Shown here piece after piece: positions 14,515 through 24,106 of a stretch of DNA of 44,567 nucleotides (the first letter of the stretch is position 1; each line of letters starts with the position of its first letter). The DNA is taken from contig JABSSC010000041.1 in the NCBI GenBank assembly GCA_013214635.1, forward strand, positions 1-44,567, given 5' to 3'. The translations under genes and the position numbers were made by a program. Source of the stretch: Paracoccaceae bacterium. Its GTDB lineage: Bacteria; Pseudomonadota; Alphaproteobacteria; Rhodobacterales; Rhodobacteraceae. The notes beneath the pieces were generated by a model, which was not told the origin of the DNA, made no database searches, and saw nothing but the letters and a program-made list of their open reading frames with translations.

Positions 14515-15972
14515 ATGGCTCTGAAACCGATACTTTGTAGACCGCTCTTCGGTCTTGCGCTGGCCGCGCTCGTAGCCGGCTCTGCTGCTGCTCAGGACAA
14601 CGGCACCGTCATCACCAAGCAATATGATGATGGTGGCGTCTACGAGGGCACCTTCAAAGACGGAAAGCAGCACGGCACCGGCACGTATCGTTTGCCGAAT
14701 GGCTATGAGTATTCCGGCGAATGGGTCGACGGTGAAATTCTGGGCCAGGGCACGGCGCGGTTCCCTAACGGTGCGGTCTATGAGGGCAGCTTTGCCGATG
14801 GCAAACCCAGCGGGACCGGCAAGATCACCTTTGCAGACGGCGGCACCTATGAAGGTGACTGGGTCGCCGGCGAGATTACGGGCTCTGGTGTGGCAACCTA
14901 TGCAAATGGCGTCCGCTACGAAGGTGGGTTCGTCAACGCGCTGCACGATGGGAATGGCCGCATGGAAAGTCCAAACGGCTATGTCTATGAGGGCAGCTGG
15001 GTGGCCGGCATCAAAGAAGGCAAAGGCCGCATCGTTTACCCCGACGGCGCCATCTACGAAGGCGACCTCGTGCGCGGCGCGCGCGAAGGCCGCGGCACCT
15101 TGTCCATGCCCGATGGCCTCGTCTATATCGGCGATTGGTCCAACGGCCAGATCAATGGCATGGGCAAACTAACCCAGCCAAACGGGGACATCTATGAGGG
15201 CCAGCTGGTCGAAGGCCAGCGTCAGGGCGAGGGCAAGGTCCTTTATGCCAACGGCGACACCTATGAAGGAACCTTCGACAACGACCTGCGCAACGGCTCA
15301 GGCACCTTCACCGGGACCGACGGCTATGTGTATGTCGGCGCGTGGAGCGACGGAAAGATCGAGGGCCAGGGCCGGGTCACCTACCCCGATGGCAGCGTCT
15401 ATGAAGGGGCCTTTCTCAACGACCTCGCGAACGGGTTGGGCAAGATCGTCTATCCCGACGGCAACACTTATGAAGGCAACTGGACCGATGGCGTCATTCA
15501 GGGTCAGGGTGTGGCGACCTATGCCAACGGCCTGCGCTATGAAGGGACGTTCGTGAATGCCCGCATGGAAGGCACAGGCACAATGACCTTTGCCGATGGG
15601 TACACGTATATCGGGGATTGGAAGGCCGGGCAGCGGGACGGACAAGGTGTTGCAACCTATGCCGATGGCACCGTCTATGAAGGCAGCTTTGTCGCCGGTC
15701 AGCGTGAGGGTCAGGGCACGATCCGTATGCCTGATGGCTTCACCTATTCCGGCGATTGGGCTGATGGCGAGATCAATGGAACGGGCACGGCGACGTATGC
15801 CAATGGGGACATTTACGAGGGCAGCTTCGTGAACGGCCAACGGCAGGGTGAAGGTACGATCCGTTACGCGACGGGCGAGACGGCCTCGGGCGACTGGACT
15901 GCGGGTGAACTTGAAAACGCTGCAACGGACGCCACTGAAGAAAGCACCGAAGAAACGACCGACACGAACTAG
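14515..15972 (+). CDS. Secreted MORN-repeat protein
   Basis: A 485-residue protein with a Sec signal peptide (LFGLALAALVAGSAAAQ, cleavage near residue 26) and then MORN repeats of exactly 23 residues from residue 40 onward: eighteen clear copies and a degenerate nineteenth (GETASGDWTAGEL), followed by an acidic Thr/Glu tail. Repeats alternate between YEGxF and YxGxW types. Repeats 1-9 and 10-18 match one another in order, so the array arose by duplicating a nine-repeat block. MORN repeats make an elongated beta structure and in bacteria are often envelope-associated; no catalytic domain is present. It is convergent with the GST gene, with six bases between the stop codons. Confidence 0.92.
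   Translation: MALKPILCRPLFGLALAALVAGSAAAQDNGTVITKQYDDGGVYEGTFKDGKQHGTGTYRLPNGYEYSGEWVDGEILGQGTARFPNGAVYEGSFADGKPSGTGKITFADGGTYEGDWVAGEITGSGVATYANGVRYEGGFVNALHDGNGRMESPNGYVYEGSWVAGIKEGKGRIVYPDGAIYEGDLVRGAREGRGTLSMPDGLVYIGDWSNGQINGMGKLTQPNGDIYEGQLVEGQRQGEGKVLYANGDTYEGTFDNDLRNGSGTFTGTDGYVYVGAWSDGKIEGQGRVTYPDGSVYEGAFLNDLANGLGKIVYPDGNTYEGNWTDGVIQGQGVATYANGLRYEGTFVNARMEGTGTMTFADGYTYIGDWKAGQRDGQGVATYADGTVYEGSFVAGQREGQGTIRMPDGFTYSGDWADGEINGTGTATYANGDIYEGSFVNGQRQGEGTIRYATGETASGDWTAGELENAATDATEESTEETTDTN
14632..15942 (+). repeat. Tandem 69-bp MORN repeat array
   Basis: Nineteen in-frame 69-bp units inside the MORN gene. Block A (14632-15252, repeats 1-9) and block B (15253-15873, repeats 10-18) are 621 bp each and align unit by unit at protein level; the nineteenth unit is degenerate. 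Long antisense open frames here are a by-product of the repeats. Confidence 0.9.
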
Positions 15973-17334: not shown

Positions 17335-17745
17335 ATGACCTCTGAGACCACACATTCCACTTTGCGCGGCTTCGACGCACGCTCTGACCAAACGGTCGGA
17401 TCGGAACGTGTGCGCCCTCAGCCGCGTCGGCACAAGCGACTGCCGGATCTTGTCCCGGCGGATGCAGATCTGTCCGCCCCCCGTGGCGCCTTTAGCTCGC
17501 CCGCGCTTCAGGATGAATCCACCGTCTTTACGGAACGGGCGGAATGCGACAGCGAAACTGCAAAGATGACGGTCTATGTTTTGAACGCCATCCTGTTCCT
17601 GATCGCTTTCCCGGTTGGGTTTGGCATGCTGATGTTCAACATCCTCGGCGGTGAGAACCTGCGCACCACGGCGCATGTCATGGCGCTGACGGGTATGGGA
17701 AGTGCTTTGTCCTTCAGTGGCGCAGCGATCCCGCTGATCAGCTAA
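17335..17745 (+). CDS. Hypothetical protein with two C-terminal membrane helices
   Basis: A 136-residue protein of unknown function. The first 80 residues are polar, Arg/Pro-rich and probably disordered (VRPQPRRHKRLPDLVP); the last 60 carry two hydrophobic helices, MTVYVLNAILFLIAFPVGF and TAHVMALTGMGSALSFSGAA, joined by a short loop with GGENLRTT. The ATG at 17335 has AAGG at suitable distance. Its stop region overlaps the 3' end of the convergent DUF3445 gene by eight bases. The clean helix pair argues that it is a real gene. Confidence 0.65.
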   Translation: MTSETTHSTLRGFDARSDQTVGSERVRPQPRRHKRLPDLVPADADLSAPRGAFSSPALQDESTVFTERAECDSETAKMTVYVLNAILFLIAFPVGFGMLMFNILGGENLRTTAHVMALTGMGSALSFSGAAIPLIS

Positions 17746-18529
17746 CAACCTCTAACGCCGCCAGCCCGGCCCGTTGATCGCCGGTCAAATCGCGCGCCCG
17801 GATCACCACTGTGTGGATTGAAAAAACTACGGCGTCGGTTTTGGGCAGCCGAAACAGCGTTTGCCGCTCTGACCGAAGATACGCCGCAGGTGTCGCCCGG
17901 TCGCGCGGCGGTTCATCCTCTCGGCGTGGTTGATAGAGTTCTGCGTCGTTGTACATCAGCGCATTTGATCGCCACAGCGGACGCCCGACGCGGAGCGCGT
18001 CAAACAAGCGCTGAACGCGGCGTTCGACCTCGGGCGTATAGCTTTCGACAGGCGTGTGTATGGCCCCCATGGGCCGCCCGATCTTTTGTTTGAGCGTCCA
18101 GCTTGCCGGAAAACACAGGATCGCCGCGCTCAGCACGTGGCCCGAGGTCGACGGGGTCAGAATACAGAAATCTTCCTGCACCAACCGCCCCAGTGTCACC
18201 AATGGACGCGACGGGTCGAGGTCCACCGCAATGCCGTCGGGCCGCAGTACCTGGCTCGTTCCAAAGGCGTATCCCGGGCACTGGCGCAAAAGCGTGAGGA
18301 TACTCTCATAGAGTTCCGCCGCGCCCCCCTCACCCGCTGGACGCATCTGATGGACATCGTCAAGGCGCTCTGCGATCAGCGCGTCCCGGCGGGCCATTTG
18401 TCCGGCGAACGCATCGTCCTGCAAAACCCAGCTTCCCTCCTCGGCGGGCTGAATGCCGGGCAAGCGCGCGGTGTGGGCCGTCATCCAAGGTGCATGCGGA
18501 AGTTCTGATTGAAGGATAGGCGCAGACAT
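17738..18529 (-). CDS. Heme-dependent oxidative N-demethylase family protein (DUF3445)
   Basis: A 263-residue member of the DUF3445 family (heme-dependent oxidative N-demethylase; includes subunits of bacterial dimethylamine monooxygenase). Family-like segments are LVQEDFCILTPSTSGHVLSA, LCFPASWTLKQKIGRPMGAI with the following HTPVESYTPEVERRVQRLF, and RSERQTLFRLPKTDAVVFSI near the end. No other dmm genes or methylamine genes are in the window, so the substrate is open. It is divergent from dddP with 114 bp between start codons, a pairing that would put two enzymes for methylated osmolyte-type compounds under one control region. Confidence 0.82.
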   Translation of the reverse strand: MSAPILQSELPHAPWMTAHTARLPGIQPAEEGSWVLQDDAFAGQMARRDALIAERLDDVHQMRPAGEGGAAELYESILTLLRQCPGYAFGTSQVLRPDGIAVDLDPSRPLVTLGRLVQEDFCILTPSTSGHVLSAAILCFPASWTLKQKIGRPMGAIHTPVESYTPEVERRVQRLFDALRVGRPLWRSNALMYNDAELYQPRREDEPPRDRATPAAYLRSERQTLFRLPKTDAVVFSIHTVVIRARDLTGDQRAGLAALEVVS

Positions 18530-18643
18530 TCCAACACTCTGTCACGGAAAGCGATGGCGCAAAAGCGACATCGACAAGCGTCGGAATCGGGCGTGACCGC
18601 AAGGTTGCTTCACCCGCATCGTTCCTCTGTCAGGGAGGATGCA

Positions 18644-19972
18644 ATGAATACGCATTACCGGGATACACGCAAAATCGACCCCACACGCGGGGCCATGCTG
18701 GGTGACAACACGCCCAACGATCCCGATCGGATCGAGATCGGCCCAACTGCGTTGGCCTATGGAGAATGGGCGGCGGCCGGGCTTGAACTGCCCGATCTTC
18801 AGGCGATGCGCCGGTACCGGTGGGAGCGGTTGGTCAACCACATCATCGCGCGCGACTATGGTGGGGTGTTGATGTTCGACCCGCTCAACATCCGATACGC
18901 GACTGATTCCACCAACATGCAGCTTTGGAACACCCACAATCCGTTTCGCGCAGTGCTTGTCTGCGCGGACGGGTACATGGTGATTTGGGATTACAAGAAC
19001 TCCCCGTTTCTCAGTTCATTTAACCCGTTGGTGCGCGAAGCGCGGTCTGGCGCGGACCTGTTTTACTTTGATCGCGGCGACAAGGCGGGCCATCAGGCGG
19101 GGATTTTCGCGGCAGAAGTGAAGGACCTGATCGCCCAGCATGGCGGCGGCAATCGCCGGCTGGCGGTCGATAAGGTGATGCTGCACGGGCTCCGCGCGTT
19201 AGAGGCGCAGGGGTTCGAGGTGATGGAGGGCGAAGAGCTCACCGAAAAGGCACGCTCGATCAAAGGGCCCGACGAAATCAAAGCGATGCGATGCGCCGTT
19301 AATGCCTGTGAGGCCGCGGTCTATGCCATGGAACAGGCCTGTGTCGCAGGGAAGTCTGAAGATGAGATATGGTCCGTCCTGCATGCCGAGAACATCAAGC
19401 GTGGCGGCGAGTGGATTGAAACCCGGCTTTTGGCCTCGGGTCCGCGGTCAAACCCGTGGTTTCAGGAGTGTGGGCCGCGGATCGTCCAGCCCAATGAGAT
19501 TGTGAGCTTCGATACCGACCTTGTGAGCAGCTATGGCATTTGTGTCGACATCTCACGCAGTTGGTGGGTTGGCCCGGGCAAGCCGCGCCCGGATATGATC
19601 TATGCCATGCGCCATGCCCACGAGCACATCATGACCAACATGGGCATGCTGCGGCCCGGTGTCGCTATTGAGGATCTGTGCCGCAACACGCATGTCCTCG
19701 ACGACAAGTATCAGGAGCTGAAATACGGCTGTCTGATGCACGGTGTGGGCCTGTGCGATGAGTGGCCGCTTGTCGCCTATCCCGACAAAATGGTCGAAGG
19801 CGCATTCGACTATGAGCTACAGCCGGGGATGGTGCTTTGTGTGGAGGCGCTTGTGGGAGAAGTCGGCGGGGATTTCTCGATCAAGTTGGAGGATCAGGTG
19901 GTCATCACCGAAGACGGATATGAGAACCTGATTTCCTACCCCTTCGACCCAGCTTTGATGGGCGAAACCTAA
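18644..19972 (+). CDS. dddP: DMSP lyase DddP (M24 peptidase-fold)
   Basis: Cleaves dimethylsulfoniopropionate to dimethyl sulfide and acrylate. DddP is a metal-dependent lyase on a creatinase/M24 fold. The protein is 442 residues, as expected. Reported residues of the Ruegeria lacuscaerulensis enzyme (D295, D297, D307, H371, E406, E421 as metal ligands, D377 as catalytic base) appear here as D290, D292, D302, H366, E401, E416 and D372, all offset by exactly five. Key segments: VSFDTDL, GICVDISRSWW, CLMHGVGLCDEWP, LCVEALVGEVGGD. The ATG at 18644 has GGGAGGAT upstream. Its 3' end overlaps the convergent methyltransferase gene by four bases. No acrylate-catabolism genes adjoin it. Confidence 0.95.
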   Translation: MNTHYRDTRKIDPTRGAMLGDNTPNDPDRIEIGPTALAYGEWAAAGLELPDLQAMRRYRWERLVNHIIARDYGGVLMFDPLNIRYATDSTNMQLWNTHNPFRAVLVCADGYMVIWDYKNSPFLSSFNPLVREARSGADLFYFDRGDKAGHQAGIFAAEVKDLIAQHGGGNRRLAVDKVMLHGLRALEAQGFEVMEGEELTEKARSIKGPDEIKAMRCAVNACEAAVYAMEQACVAGKSEDEIWSVLHAENIKRGGEWIETRLLASGPRSNPWFQECGPRIVQPNEIVSFDTDLVSSYGICVDISRSWWVGPGKPRPDMIYAMRHAHEHIMTNMGMLRPGVAIEDLCRNTHVLDDKYQELKYGCLMHGVGLCDEWPLVAYPDKMVEGAFDYELQPGMVLCVEALVGEVGGDFSIKLEDQVVITEDGYENLISYPFDPALMGET

Positions 19973-20604
19973 CCGACACGTGGCGTGCGATAGACGTAGA
20001 CCGCGAATTCGAACGGGAATGCGCCGGGTCGGGTCAGGTAGTCGTGCCGCAGCACCGGGTGCCCTCCGAGTTCGGTCTTGCAAAAGGACAGCACCTCGGC
20101 CGGATCGACATACCAAAGCTCGGGGTCATGAAAGTCCACAAAACGGGTCATCGCATTGAAAGCGATACCTTTTTCGGATGCGTCCCACATGGCCCGCAGT
20201 GACGAGGTCAAAAACCCCCAATTGTCGTCCATCGCGTTGTTAAAGATCCCGGATGCCAGCGCGTAATCGACCGGACCAGGCAGCGCGTTGGGAAGATCGG
20301 ACCGCATGACCCTGACTTGGGTCGCTCCCGCGGCGCGCGCGCGCAAATGGTCCAGAAACTCAGGCACGATGTCGACGCCGGTATAGGCGCTGTAGCCACC
20401 CCGATCTTCGAGATGGTCCCAAAGCGCCCCCAGCCCGCACCCGACATCGAGCACGTGCCCAAGGTCATCGTCTATCCCACACAGTACGCGGAACCGCGCG
20501 AACTGACTGTCCTTGTCGGCCCAGTGCACCGCCTTTGCGCCGGGGCCATGTTCGCGCAGGCGTTCAGCGTAATGCGCGATCATCGGGTTTGTGGACGTCG
20601 TCAT
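19969..20604 (-). CDS. SAM-dependent class I methyltransferase
   Basis: A 211-residue Rossmann-fold methyltransferase. The SAM-binding motif I is HVLDVGCGLGALWDHL, the acidic end of strand 2 is YTGVDIVPEF, and ALASGIFNN corresponds to motif IV. N-terminal AVHWADKDSQFARFRVLCGI resembles methyltransferases found in polysaccharide or small-molecule gene clusters. The start overlaps the stop of the upstream FAD-protein gene by four bases (ATGA), so it is translationally coupled and third in the wbqC-like / oxidoreductase / methyltransferase operon. Substrate unknown. Confidence 0.85.
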   Translation of the reverse strand: MTTSTNPMIAHYAERLREHGPGAKAVHWADKDSQFARFRVLCGIDDDLGHVLDVGCGLGALWDHLEDRGGYSAYTGVDIVPEFLDHLRARAAGATQVRVMRSDLPNALPGPVDYALASGIFNNAMDDNWGFLTSSLRAMWDASEKGIAFNAMTRFVDFHDPELWYVDPAEVLSFCKTELGGHPVLRHDYLTRPGAFPFEFAVYVYRTPRVG

Positions 20605-21959
20605 GCCAAGGCGCCGCGTAGCCGGTCACCAAGCGTGTCTTCAAAGAAGCGCATAAAGGCCAACCGCCCGCGATAGCCAAATGCGATTCCGTGAATGTTG
20701 GGGCTGGCAGCTTGAATGGCAGCTTGGGCAGCGTCGTAGCCGTCACGCCAGCCAGTCTTGGGCAAGGTATAAGCAACCGGATGGCTCCACCCAAACCGGT
20801 CATGCGCCACCGCATCTGCGCGGAGATATCCCACGTCCCGAAGCGCGTCCCACGCGGCCTGCGCGTTATCGTCGGTGATCACGTCGCGCAAATCTTTGGG
20901 GTGCCCGGGCATTTCGCAGGTCACATAAGTGCGCCCATCAGGTTTGGTCTGGGCGCCGTAAACGCCCGCTTTGTTGTACCGAAAGGGAAGCCGCTTGCCG
21001 GAGTAGTCATGCAGGTAATCCGGTCCAACAATCGCGTCCTGATCGACCTCAAACGCAAAGAAGGCGGTTCCGACGGGATGAGCAGAACTCATAAGATCGA
21101 CGTCGGCGCCGATGATCTTCATCAGATGCGTCTCGGGCAGTGACCAGAAGAGCGCCCTGCCCTCAATCCGGTCTTCCCCGACCGTGACGGCGATACCGCC
21201 GTCAATGTGCTCAACCCCATCCACGGGTGCGCCAGTCCGGATCGCGACGCCCAGCGCGCGCAATCTGCGGTCAGCGGCTTCGCAAAAGCCAGTCAGACCT
21301 TTGCGTGCGGGAAAGGCAAAGATCTTGTTTGCATTGAGTCCAATGAAATCCGCGTCTCCGCAATAAAGCGAGACCCCCAACCGATCATCCCAGAACGATG
21401 AGGTGCGTTTGAGCGCCAGCATGTCGTCATCCGTGCCCAACCGGACGCGCGAAAACATTCCCAACAGCCCAGCCGCATCGGCCGAGATTTCAGCCGGGTC
21501 AGCGCCTGTGTACTTTTTGACCATCGGAGACAGACGCGCGGCCAAGGCGGGGCCGAATTTCGCCAGCAAAACGTCAGCATAGGTTTCCGGTGGCGGGCCC
21601 GCGGCCGCGTGCTCAAGCGCGGCCAACTCGGCCAGTGCGCGTGCAGCGAACTCAGGCTCATCCGTGAAATCCGGAAGTTCAAACCCGGAAATCCAGGTTT
21701 TGTCGTTGGTCGTTGCCCATTGCTGATCTTCAAAAACGAGCAGGTCGTTGCCAAGGATATCAGGATAGAACGCCGCCCCGAGATCAGAGCGCATGTCAAA
21801 GTTATGCGTTCCGTTGTCGAGCCAATACCCGTTCCATTCACGGCTGTTGAGGTTTCCGCCCAGCGTCGGCGCTGCCTCGATCAGGTCTACCGCGTATCCT
21901 TCCCGTGCGAGGCGCCATGCGGCATAGATGCCCGCAAACCCGCCGCCCGCGATGATCAT
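20601..21959 (-). CDS. FAD/NAD(P)-binding oxidoreductase
   Basis: A 452-residue flavoprotein-type enzyme. It begins immediately with the dinucleotide fold (MIIAGGGFAGIYAAWRLARE, then DLIEAAPTLGGN), and has FPARKGLTGFCEAADRRLRA and SLPETHLMKIIG, the pattern of the amine oxidase / protoporphyrinogen oxidase / UDP-galactopyranose mutase superfamily. A C-terminal FAD segment reads IHGIAFGYRGRLAFMRFFED. ATG at 21959 is chosen because the Rossmann strand starts there; it lies seven bases after the wbqC-like stop. Together with its neighbours it probably modifies a surface sugar or lipid, but that is inference. Confidence 0.8.
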   Translation of the reverse strand: MIIAGGGFAGIYAAWRLAREGYAVDLIEAAPTLGGNLNSREWNGYWLDNGTHNFDMRSDLGAAFYPDILGNDLLVFEDQQWATTNDKTWISGFELPDFTDEPEFAARALAELAALEHAAAGPPPETYADVLLAKFGPALAARLSPMVKKYTGADPAEISADAAGLLGMFSRVRLGTDDDMLALKRTSSFWDDRLGVSLYCGDADFIGLNANKIFAFPARKGLTGFCEAADRRLRALGVAIRTGAPVDGVEHIDGGIAVTVGEDRIEGRALFWSLPETHLMKIIGADVDLMSSAHPVGTAFFAFEVDQDAIVGPDYLHDYSGKRLPFRYNKAGVYGAQTKPDGRTYVTCEMPGHPKDLRDVITDDNAQAAWDALRDVGYLRADAVAHDRFGWSHPVAYTLPKTGWRDGYDAAQAAIQAASPNIHGIAFGYRGRLAFMRFFEDTLGDRLRGALA

Positions 21960-21966
21960 TTTGCGC

Positions 21967-22713
21967 TCAGCCAACAGGTGTCTCCACTTCCAGTAACTCT
22001 TCGAGATCGTGATGCGCGCCCACGCCTTGGCGCGCGAGCGCTGCAAACCCATCCGGACCGACCGCGGCCAAGGCCTCGACAGCTGACATGTGGGACACGA
22101 AAGCGTCGCCTCCTTGCGCGTATTCCGGGTGGGAATAATTGAATATTTTCAGATCGATACCCGATCCGGGAAAGGCGTTTTCCCTGGCAAGGTAATCGAT
22201 CGCACCCGGGGGCGAGACATAGATTGCACCATCCACAGACCGGCAGAGATCAACAAGCCGGTCCGTTTTGAGTTGTGCAACGGCCGCGTTGCCTTCGCTC
22301 GTGGTGTAGCGCGGTGTCGCGATGCCAGTTGCATCGCAAATCCGGTCTATTATTGCACGGTTGAGCGATGACAGCCGCCCGTCGCTTTCATCGAAGCCCT
22401 GGCGAACAAGATCAACCGCAACGGCCCGGTGGGGCATACCTGACAAAACTTGATCAAGCGCGGCGATCAACCCGGCCTCAAATCCGTCATCCACCACCTT
22501 GGCCTCGGCGATACTGACGCGCGACGGCTTGCGGCGCATTTTGAGGGACAACCATATAGGCGCCCCTCGCCCGCAGATCCGGTTCCGACTTTGCCAGCTC
22601 TGACGTGAGAACTGGACGTCATCGAGGAAAAAGAAGTGGTCCACTGCATCAATCAGCGCGAAATACCCGATCCACGGCAGGAAAGTGGGCTGCATGATGG
22701 CGACGGTCGTCAT
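21967..22713 (-). CDS. WbqC-like family protein
   Basis: A 248-residue WbqC-like protein (PF08889 type). Diagnostic N-terminal block: AIMQPTFLPWIGYFALID, then FFLDDVQFSRQSWQSRNRI, and later YVSPPGAIDYL with NYSHPEYAQ. WbqC-like proteins are found next to O-antigen and capsule sugar genes, but their reaction is not established; a role in transfer or modification of an amino sugar has been suggested from context. ATG at 22713 begins right before the conserved block. It is the first gene of the three-gene minus-strand unit and is divergent from the hydrolase-OsmC fusion gene. Confidence 0.85.
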   Translation of the reverse strand: MTTVAIMQPTFLPWIGYFALIDAVDHFFFLDDVQFSRQSWQSRNRICGRGAPIWLSLKMRRKPSRVSIAEAKVVDDGFEAGLIAALDQVLSGMPHRAVAVDLVRQGFDESDGRLSSLNRAIIDRICDATGIATPRYTTSEGNAAVAQLKTDRLVDLCRSVDGAIYVSPPGAIDYLARENAFPGSGIDLKIFNYSHPEYAQGGDAFVSHMSAVEALAAVGPDGFAALARQGVGAHHDLEELLEVETPVG

Positions 22714-22885
22714 GGGCCGATAATGCGCCAATCCGCGCGCCGCTCAAGCCATTTAAACGCGAGACAGCGTCGGCCAGCAGAGTGTCACACAAAGTCACCT
22801 TGCCGTGACGACCTGTCGCAAAGCTTGCAGTGTGCGATGCAACGCCCACATGGTCGCTTCCAAGGATACCTGAAGGATGCGTGCT

Positions 22886-24106
22886 ATGGGCATGGAAAGA
22901 ATCTCATTTCCCGGACATTCCGGCGGCAAGCTTGCCGCGCGTCTGGATATGCCGGATGGCCCACATCTTGGCACCGCACTGATGGCGCATTGCTTTACGT
23001 GTTCAAAGGATATTCCTGCGTCGCGCCGGATCGCCGGGCGGCTGGCTGCGATGGGTATTGCTGTTCTACGCTTCGACTTCACGGGTCTTGGCCATTCCGA
23101 AGGCGAGTTTGAGAATACGACGTTTTCATCCAACGTGGACGATCTTGTTGCCGCTGCAGGCTACCTTGCAGATCGCGGCATGGCCCCGTCGATGCTGGTG
23201 GGTCATTCGCTTGGCGGTGCGGCCGTTTTGAAGGCGGCAGGACAAATCCCAAGCGTCAAAGCCGTCGTGACCATTGGCGCGCCATTTGACCCCGAACACG
23301 TGACGCACAACTTTGGTGATGCGCTGGACAGCATCAAAACCGACGGCTCGGCTGAGGTGCAGCTTGGCGGGCGGCCCTTCACCATCAAGCAGGATTTCGT
23401 TGAGGATGTCGCCGCCACCGCTTTGGCGCCTGCGATTGGGTCGCTTAAACGCGCGCTCCTCGTCATGCACGCGCCGCTGGACAATGTGGTGGGGATCGAA
23501 AATGCCACCGAGATCTTTCTCGCGGCCAAACATCCCAAAAGCTTTGTCACGCTCGATGATGCTGATCATCTTGTGACCAATCCGCAAGATGCCGAATACG
23601 CTGCAGAAGTCATTGCCGCATGGGCCGGACGGTACATGGATCTTGAGGTACCAGCGCCGCCACCCGGTGCGCCCGAGGGCGTGGTGCGCGTGAGCGAAGC
23701 GGACCCGGCAGGTTTCCTTCAGGATGTGAATTCTGGTCCCTACCATCACACGGTGGCGGACGAGCCGCTCGCCTATGGCGGGACGAACAAAGGCATGTCG
23801 CCATATGGCTTTCTGGCCTCAGGGCTTGGGGCCTGCACCTCGATGACCGTGCGCATGTACGCCCGGCGCAAGGGTTGGCCGCTGGCACATGTTTCGGTGG
23901 ACGTGACCCATGACAAGGTTCACGCGCAAGACGCCGAAGCGGTCAACGGGACCGAGCTTAAAATCGATCAATTCACGCGGGTTGTGCATTTGGTTGGTGA
24001 TTTGACGACCGAGCAACGCCAGAGGTTGCTTGAGATCGCCGACAAATGCCCCGTGCACCGCACTCTGGAGCGCGGTGCAAAGGTCGTCACGTCTCTCGAC
24101 GACTGA
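22886..24106 (+). CDS. Bifunctional alpha/beta hydrolase / OsmC family protein
   Basis: A fusion protein of 406 residues. Residues 1-250 form an alpha/beta hydrolase with nucleophile S108 in LVGHSLGGAAV and a late His (H228, DDADHLV). Residues 265-406 form an OsmC/Ohr-like domain with the two redox Cys C317 (GLGACTSMTVRMY) and C388 (DKCPVHRTLE) that reduce organic hydroperoxides. The combination suggests hydrolysis of an acyl or ester substrate linked to peroxide removal. I chose the ATG at 22886, eight bases after GAAGGA; the ATG at 22877 overlaps that site. Its stop codon directly abuts the convergent lipoprotein gene. Confidence 0.92.
   Translation: MGMERISFPGHSGGKLAARLDMPDGPHLGTALMAHCFTCSKDIPASRRIAGRLAAMGIAVLRFDFTGLGHSEGEFENTTFSSNVDDLVAAAGYLADRGMAPSMLVGHSLGGAAVLKAAGQIPSVKAVVTIGAPFDPEHVTHNFGDALDSIKTDGSAEVQLGGRPFTIKQDFVEDVAATALAPAIGSLKRALLVMHAPLDNVVGIENATEIFLAAKHPKSFVTLDDADHLVTNPQDAEYAAEVIAAWAGRYMDLEVPAPPPGAPEGVVRVSEADPAGFLQDVNSGPYHHTVADEPLAYGGTNKGMSPYGFLASGLGACTSMTVRMYARRKGWPLAHVSVDVTHDKVHAQDAEAVNGTELKIDQFTRVVHLVGDLTTEQRQRLLEIADKCPVHRTLERGAKVVTSLDD

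Follow-up and report, generated by a model that had tools for sequence, protein, structure and literature searches.

The stretch of DNA analysed here (the window, 44,567 nucleotides) carries a gene that by its sequence is an ordinary, intact member of the DddP family, an enzyme of an already-known kind, and a functional chromosomal dddP is, with high confidence, the best overall explanation of the locus. DddP is used by marine bacteria to convert the algal compound DMSP to the climate-active gas dimethyl sulfide (DMS). The part of the locus that we consider worth following is a dyad upstream of the gene. The features discussed below are as follows.

17738..18529, minus strand: gene next to and divergent from dddP, coding for a short HODM-like (PF11927) protein (PF11927, 165.6 bits; synteny)
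18561..18586, no strand assigned: operator-like dyad AAAAGCGAC-N10-GTCGGAA, approximately 80 bp 5' of dddP (single match in the window; cross-genus conservation)
18632..18638, plus strand: AGGGAGG, ribosome-binding-site-like, 5' of the dddP ATG (read from the sequence)
18644..19972, plus strand: dddP, DMSP lyase with an M24 peptidase fold, 442 aa (NF043017, match to 4rzy, active-site residues)

Identity and active site of the window DddP

The dddP open reading frame begins with the ATG at 18644 and runs without interruption to a stop codon that ends at 19972. A longer frame starting from the TTG at 18509 was rejected, as the homologous start MNxHYRDTRKIDP and the ribosome-binding-site-like AGGGAGG both favour the ATG. 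Comparison of the translation with NCBIfam returned 863.2 bits for NF043017, the equivalog model for the DMSP lyase DddP, which has a cut-off of 600 bits. The runner-up was the ectoine hydrolase DoeA (47 bits, cut-off 575), and no NCBIfam model for another M24 family reached its cut-off (PepQ, 39.7 bits vs 630). The top match in the PDB was RlDddP from Ruegeria lacuscaerulensis (4rzy, 822 bits over residues 1-440), a crystallised enzyme to which the window protein is 78% identical over its full length. Prolidases in the PDB scored 45 bits or less, and creatinase and prolidase relatives fall roughly 20-fold below the DddP matches. An AlphaFold2 model built from 19 aligned sequences (mean pLDDT 76.8) superposes on 4rzy with a TM-score of 0.94, compared with at most 0.70 for the other M24 enzymes listed. 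Parts of the active-site region (residues 270-276 and 367-376) are modelled with a confidence below 50, so for the geometry of the active site we rely on the homologous crystal structures. The initial annotation had called a complete DddP at these positions, and the profile, PDB and structural comparisons all bear this out, grouping the protein with DddP rather than with the creatinase, prolidase or ectoine hydrolase lineages.

In DddP from Roseobacter denitrificans (RdDddP) the metal ligands are D295, D297, D307, H371, E406, and E421, and D377 is favoured as the base with Y366 as the second candidate (PMC4108388). All six ligands are present in the window protein (D290, D292, D302, H366, E401, and E416), together with the catalytic aspartate D372 and the conserved tyrosine Y361, and each of these residues carries the RdDddP number minus five. 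This is the arrangement that the initial annotation had given for the ligands and D372. The shift in numbering results from a single five-residue loop deletion near residue 236 (about 236-240), which is common to L008, L033, L036, and L042; on the alignment, the offset is a minor variant. None of these eight active-site positions varies among the 80 sequences counted, one further row of the alignment being incomplete.

It is highly improbable that the window protein merely resembles DddP and is an M24 enzyme for some other substrate (of peptidase, creatinase, or ectoine hydrolase type), for although the fold and metal site are common to M24 enzymes and many genomes of the family contain DddP-like M24 paralogues below the DddP cut-off, the margin of the NF043017 score over its cut-off and over the next model, the retention of D372 and Y361, and the identity to a crystallised DMSP lyase argue against it.

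DMSP metabolism in the genome and in the family

A profile scan revealed only one DddP in the window's genome. Among the window genes scanned, no acrylate-use gene, DMSP gene, or second ddd gene adjoins dddP, in agreement with the initial annotation, which had concluded that downstream carbon use must be encoded elsewhere. Candidates for this role are indeed found on other contigs: an AcuI on C66 (TIGR02823, 449 bits; 427.7 bits with the NCBIfam equivalog, slightly below the cut-off of 440) and a PrpE-like ligase on C313 that scores below the PrpE cut-offs. Tight linkage of acuI and dddP was reported in none of the roseobacters, so the lack of acrylate genes beside dddP follows the rule for this group (PMC3338564).

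The search outside the window also located a DddL-like cupin on C331 (G000:C331:6725-7414, L126). This protein scores 127-128 bits against PF16867 (cut-off 27), contains the motifs HxHx4Ex6G and Gx5PxGx2H as read from its sequence, and is 48.8% identical to a plasmid protein annotated as DddL, which makes it a candidate and probable second DMSP lyase. The dddL-like and acuI genes lie on separate contigs; neither acuR nor acuI is found beside the dddL-like gene, and there is no TetR-type gene among the scanned neighbours of either.

DmdA was not found above its cut-off in a profile scan of the whole genome (assembly 96.5% complete, 348 contigs). GcvT-like matches were rejected as DmdA, with best scores of about 70 bits against the DmdA model vs a cut-off of 410; one-by-one scans covered the GcvT-like hits other than L086, L089, L091, and L094. 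DddD was likewise rejected, since none of its four matches is a DddD-length open reading frame with tandem CoA-transferase domains, and a search of the genome for BCCT transporters found none. With lyase genes present and no DmdA found, the genome looks to be cleavage-only with respect to DMSP.

Across a family sample of 151 genomes, DddP exceeds its cut-off in 83 and DmdA in 62. The two co-occur above expectation (dmdA in 49 of the 83 genomes with dddP vs 13 of the 68 without, by statistics that ignore kinship), and dddP is present without dmdA in 34 genomes. A cleavage-only genome is therefore not exceptional, and the window gene represents one further dddP host, apparently of this type.

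The release of DMS by the window DddP, as expected in the initial annotation, is predicted from sequence. Given a DddL-like cupin with both motifs in the same genome, DddP might instead be intact yet marginal for DMSP in vivo, with the DddL-like lyase cleaving most of it and DddP serving mainly for DMSOP or another substrate. DMSOP is a further substrate of DddP enzymes, with DMSO as the product, and the R. nubinhibens enzyme shows a slight preference for it (PMC10686828) and low apparent activity (PMC4108388). In addition, dddW but not dddP responds to DMSP in R. pomeroyi chemostats (PMC9769926). However, the majority of DddP enzymes tested preferred DMSP (PMC10686828), and the window gene is conserved with all of its catalytic residues and its upstream element. 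We consider a marginal role unlikely and retain a functional DMSP lyase as the preferred reading.

The upstream dyad and the neighbouring genes

The match at 18561-18586 is the only occurrence of the dyad in the 44.6 kb window, where 0 would be expected. Its consensus, AAAARCGAC-N9/10-GTCGCAA, lies approximately 80 bp before the dddP ATG, and comparison between genomes revealed conserved half-sites separated by freely variable spacers. Using a leave-one-out matrix on the window and 79 close relatives, the dyad exceeded the 99% shuffle threshold in 58 of the 80, and 57 of these 58 sites were located between -95 and -65. A second, nearly independent set contained one genome per genus (n = 78; the training site shared by three of the 78 was removed). 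Here 39 genomes were above threshold, all 39 with the site between -95 and -65, and the best match fell in that interval in 62 of 78. Column-permuted matrices placed their best matches there in 19 genera on average and in 37 at most, and gave a mean score of -3.3 vs 10.1 for the real matrix. A strict dyad was present in 28 of 48 dddP genomes with the HODM-like gene and in 11 of 26 without it, and was absent before the HODM-like gene in 15 genomes that lack dddP. As it occurs with or without the HODM-like gene and is absent before that gene when dddP is missing, the dyad belongs to dddP.

The dyad is probably an operator; no operator of dddP is described in the literature searched. No recognisable dyad lies upstream of dddP in R. 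nubinhibens ISM (L052), and the R. pomeroyi gene is not DMSP-responsive (PMC9769926); for these reasons we do not claim an inducer. We judge the chances to be evenly balanced that dddP is controlled throughout the Rhodobacteraceae via this conserved operator and an undescribed regulator, which possibly also controls an AraC-linked transporter of peptide/nickel type. If true, this would amount to a regulatory link that spans the family and concerns a very abundant DMSP lyase gene of marine bacteria. Since about 65% of the ddd genes recorded in ocean metagenomes are dddP (PMC10686828), its control bears on oceanic DMS release, and the dyad, if an operator, provides a practical starting point in the search for the regulator of this gene.

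A tight scan for the dyad pattern across the 151 genomes produced nine matches, two of them before dddP, and as a search for further regulon members it led nowhere. Two of the seven remaining matches, from two genera, are positioned between an AraC-type gene and a gene for a NikA/DppA-like solute-binding protein. The half-site AAAARCGACAT is present in this intergenic region in 28 of 70 genomes, while shuffles gave 0; the copies are often direct repeats with a spacing of about 22 bp, which is known for AraC-family sites. In the window's own genome an AraC-type regulator gene is followed by the NikA/DppA-like binding-protein gene (G000:C1:41847-42629 and downstream, L266), and the sequences GTGTCGGTTTT and ATGTCGCTTTT, which resemble the dddP half-site, form direct repeats 22 bp apart at this locus. 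These observations would fit binding of the dddP dyad by the AraC-type regulator. However, the regulator is missing at E <= 1e-20 from five of the genomes whose dddP dyad is strong, two of the best (G098 and G038) among them (association of regulator and dyad, p = 0.058), and for this reason we treat the link only as a lead. The half-sites moreover form an inverted repeat at dddP and direct repeats at the transporter gene, and the identification of this protein as the dddP regulator is doubtful.

The divergent neighbour of dddP belongs to PF11927, the haem-dependent oxidative N-demethylase alpha-like family. An HODM-like gene lies near dddP in 54 of 80 named relatives, divergent and upstream in most of these. 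When both genes are present (71 family genomes), they are within 1 kb of one another in 61, and divergent in all 61; their co-occurrence has an odds ratio of 5.0 (p = 2.8e-5, uncorrected for phylogeny). While the two genes could act as a single functional unit through the intergenic region that they share, the HODM-like gene persists without dddP in 37 genomes, in several of them at the same PurB or ABH-OsmC locus, and is missing from 12 genomes with dddP. The HODM-like gene was consequently dropped as a dddP-specific partner. Considering also that the dyad tracks dddP, an inherited gene order in which dddP was lost or gained is the better explanation, and a functional unit appears quite improbable. 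The literature searched contained nothing relevant to a link between dddP and HODM.

Other genes of the window were noted in passing. A fused alpha/beta hydrolase and OsmC domain protein is encoded at 22877-24106, and 65 of 80 relatives have a counterpart close to dddP. Directly adjoining dddP on the opposite strand is a block of methyltransferase, FAD oxidoreductase, and WbqC-like genes (19969-22731), for which a search at E 1e-15 detected no counterpart near dddP in any of the 80 relatives. Positions 14515-15972 encode a 485-aa protein that consists mostly of MORN repeats (PF02493, 356 bits).

Proposed mechanism and comparison with known systems

We propose that the window protein most likely folds as a DddP-type enzyme of the M24 fold with two metal ions. 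The metal ions, held by D290, D292, D302, H366, E401, and E416, would bind the carboxylate of DMSP, and D372 would act as the general base that triggers beta-elimination of DMSP to DMS and acrylate. The enzyme probably cleaves DMSOP to DMSO as well. The PrpE-like ligase and AcuI from the other contigs may then process the acrylate, and transcription of dddP is probably controlled by a regulator acting via the dyad at 18561-18586.

The closest characterised enzyme, RlDddP (PDB 4rzy, 4rzz, 4s00, and 4s01), shares all of the metal ligands, the catalytic aspartate, and the tyrosine with the window protein, which differs in having a loop near residue 236 that is five residues shorter. RdDddP (PDB 4b28) has the same fold and six ligands (74% identity and a TM-score of 0.93 for the model), and here too the difference in the window protein is the five-residue loop deletion. 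With respect to gene organisation, acuR, acuI, and dddL form one operon in R. sphaeroides (PMC3017554), whereas the dddL-like and acuI genes of the window's genome lie apart. That operon, which encodes a DMSP lyase, likewise has a dyad upstream, the AcuR operator (PMC3017554). It differs from the dddP dyad in both sequence and position: the AcuR operator is TAATAGAC-N6-GTCTATTA and precedes acuR, whereas the dyad with the AAAARCGAC and GTCGCAA half-sites precedes dddP itself.
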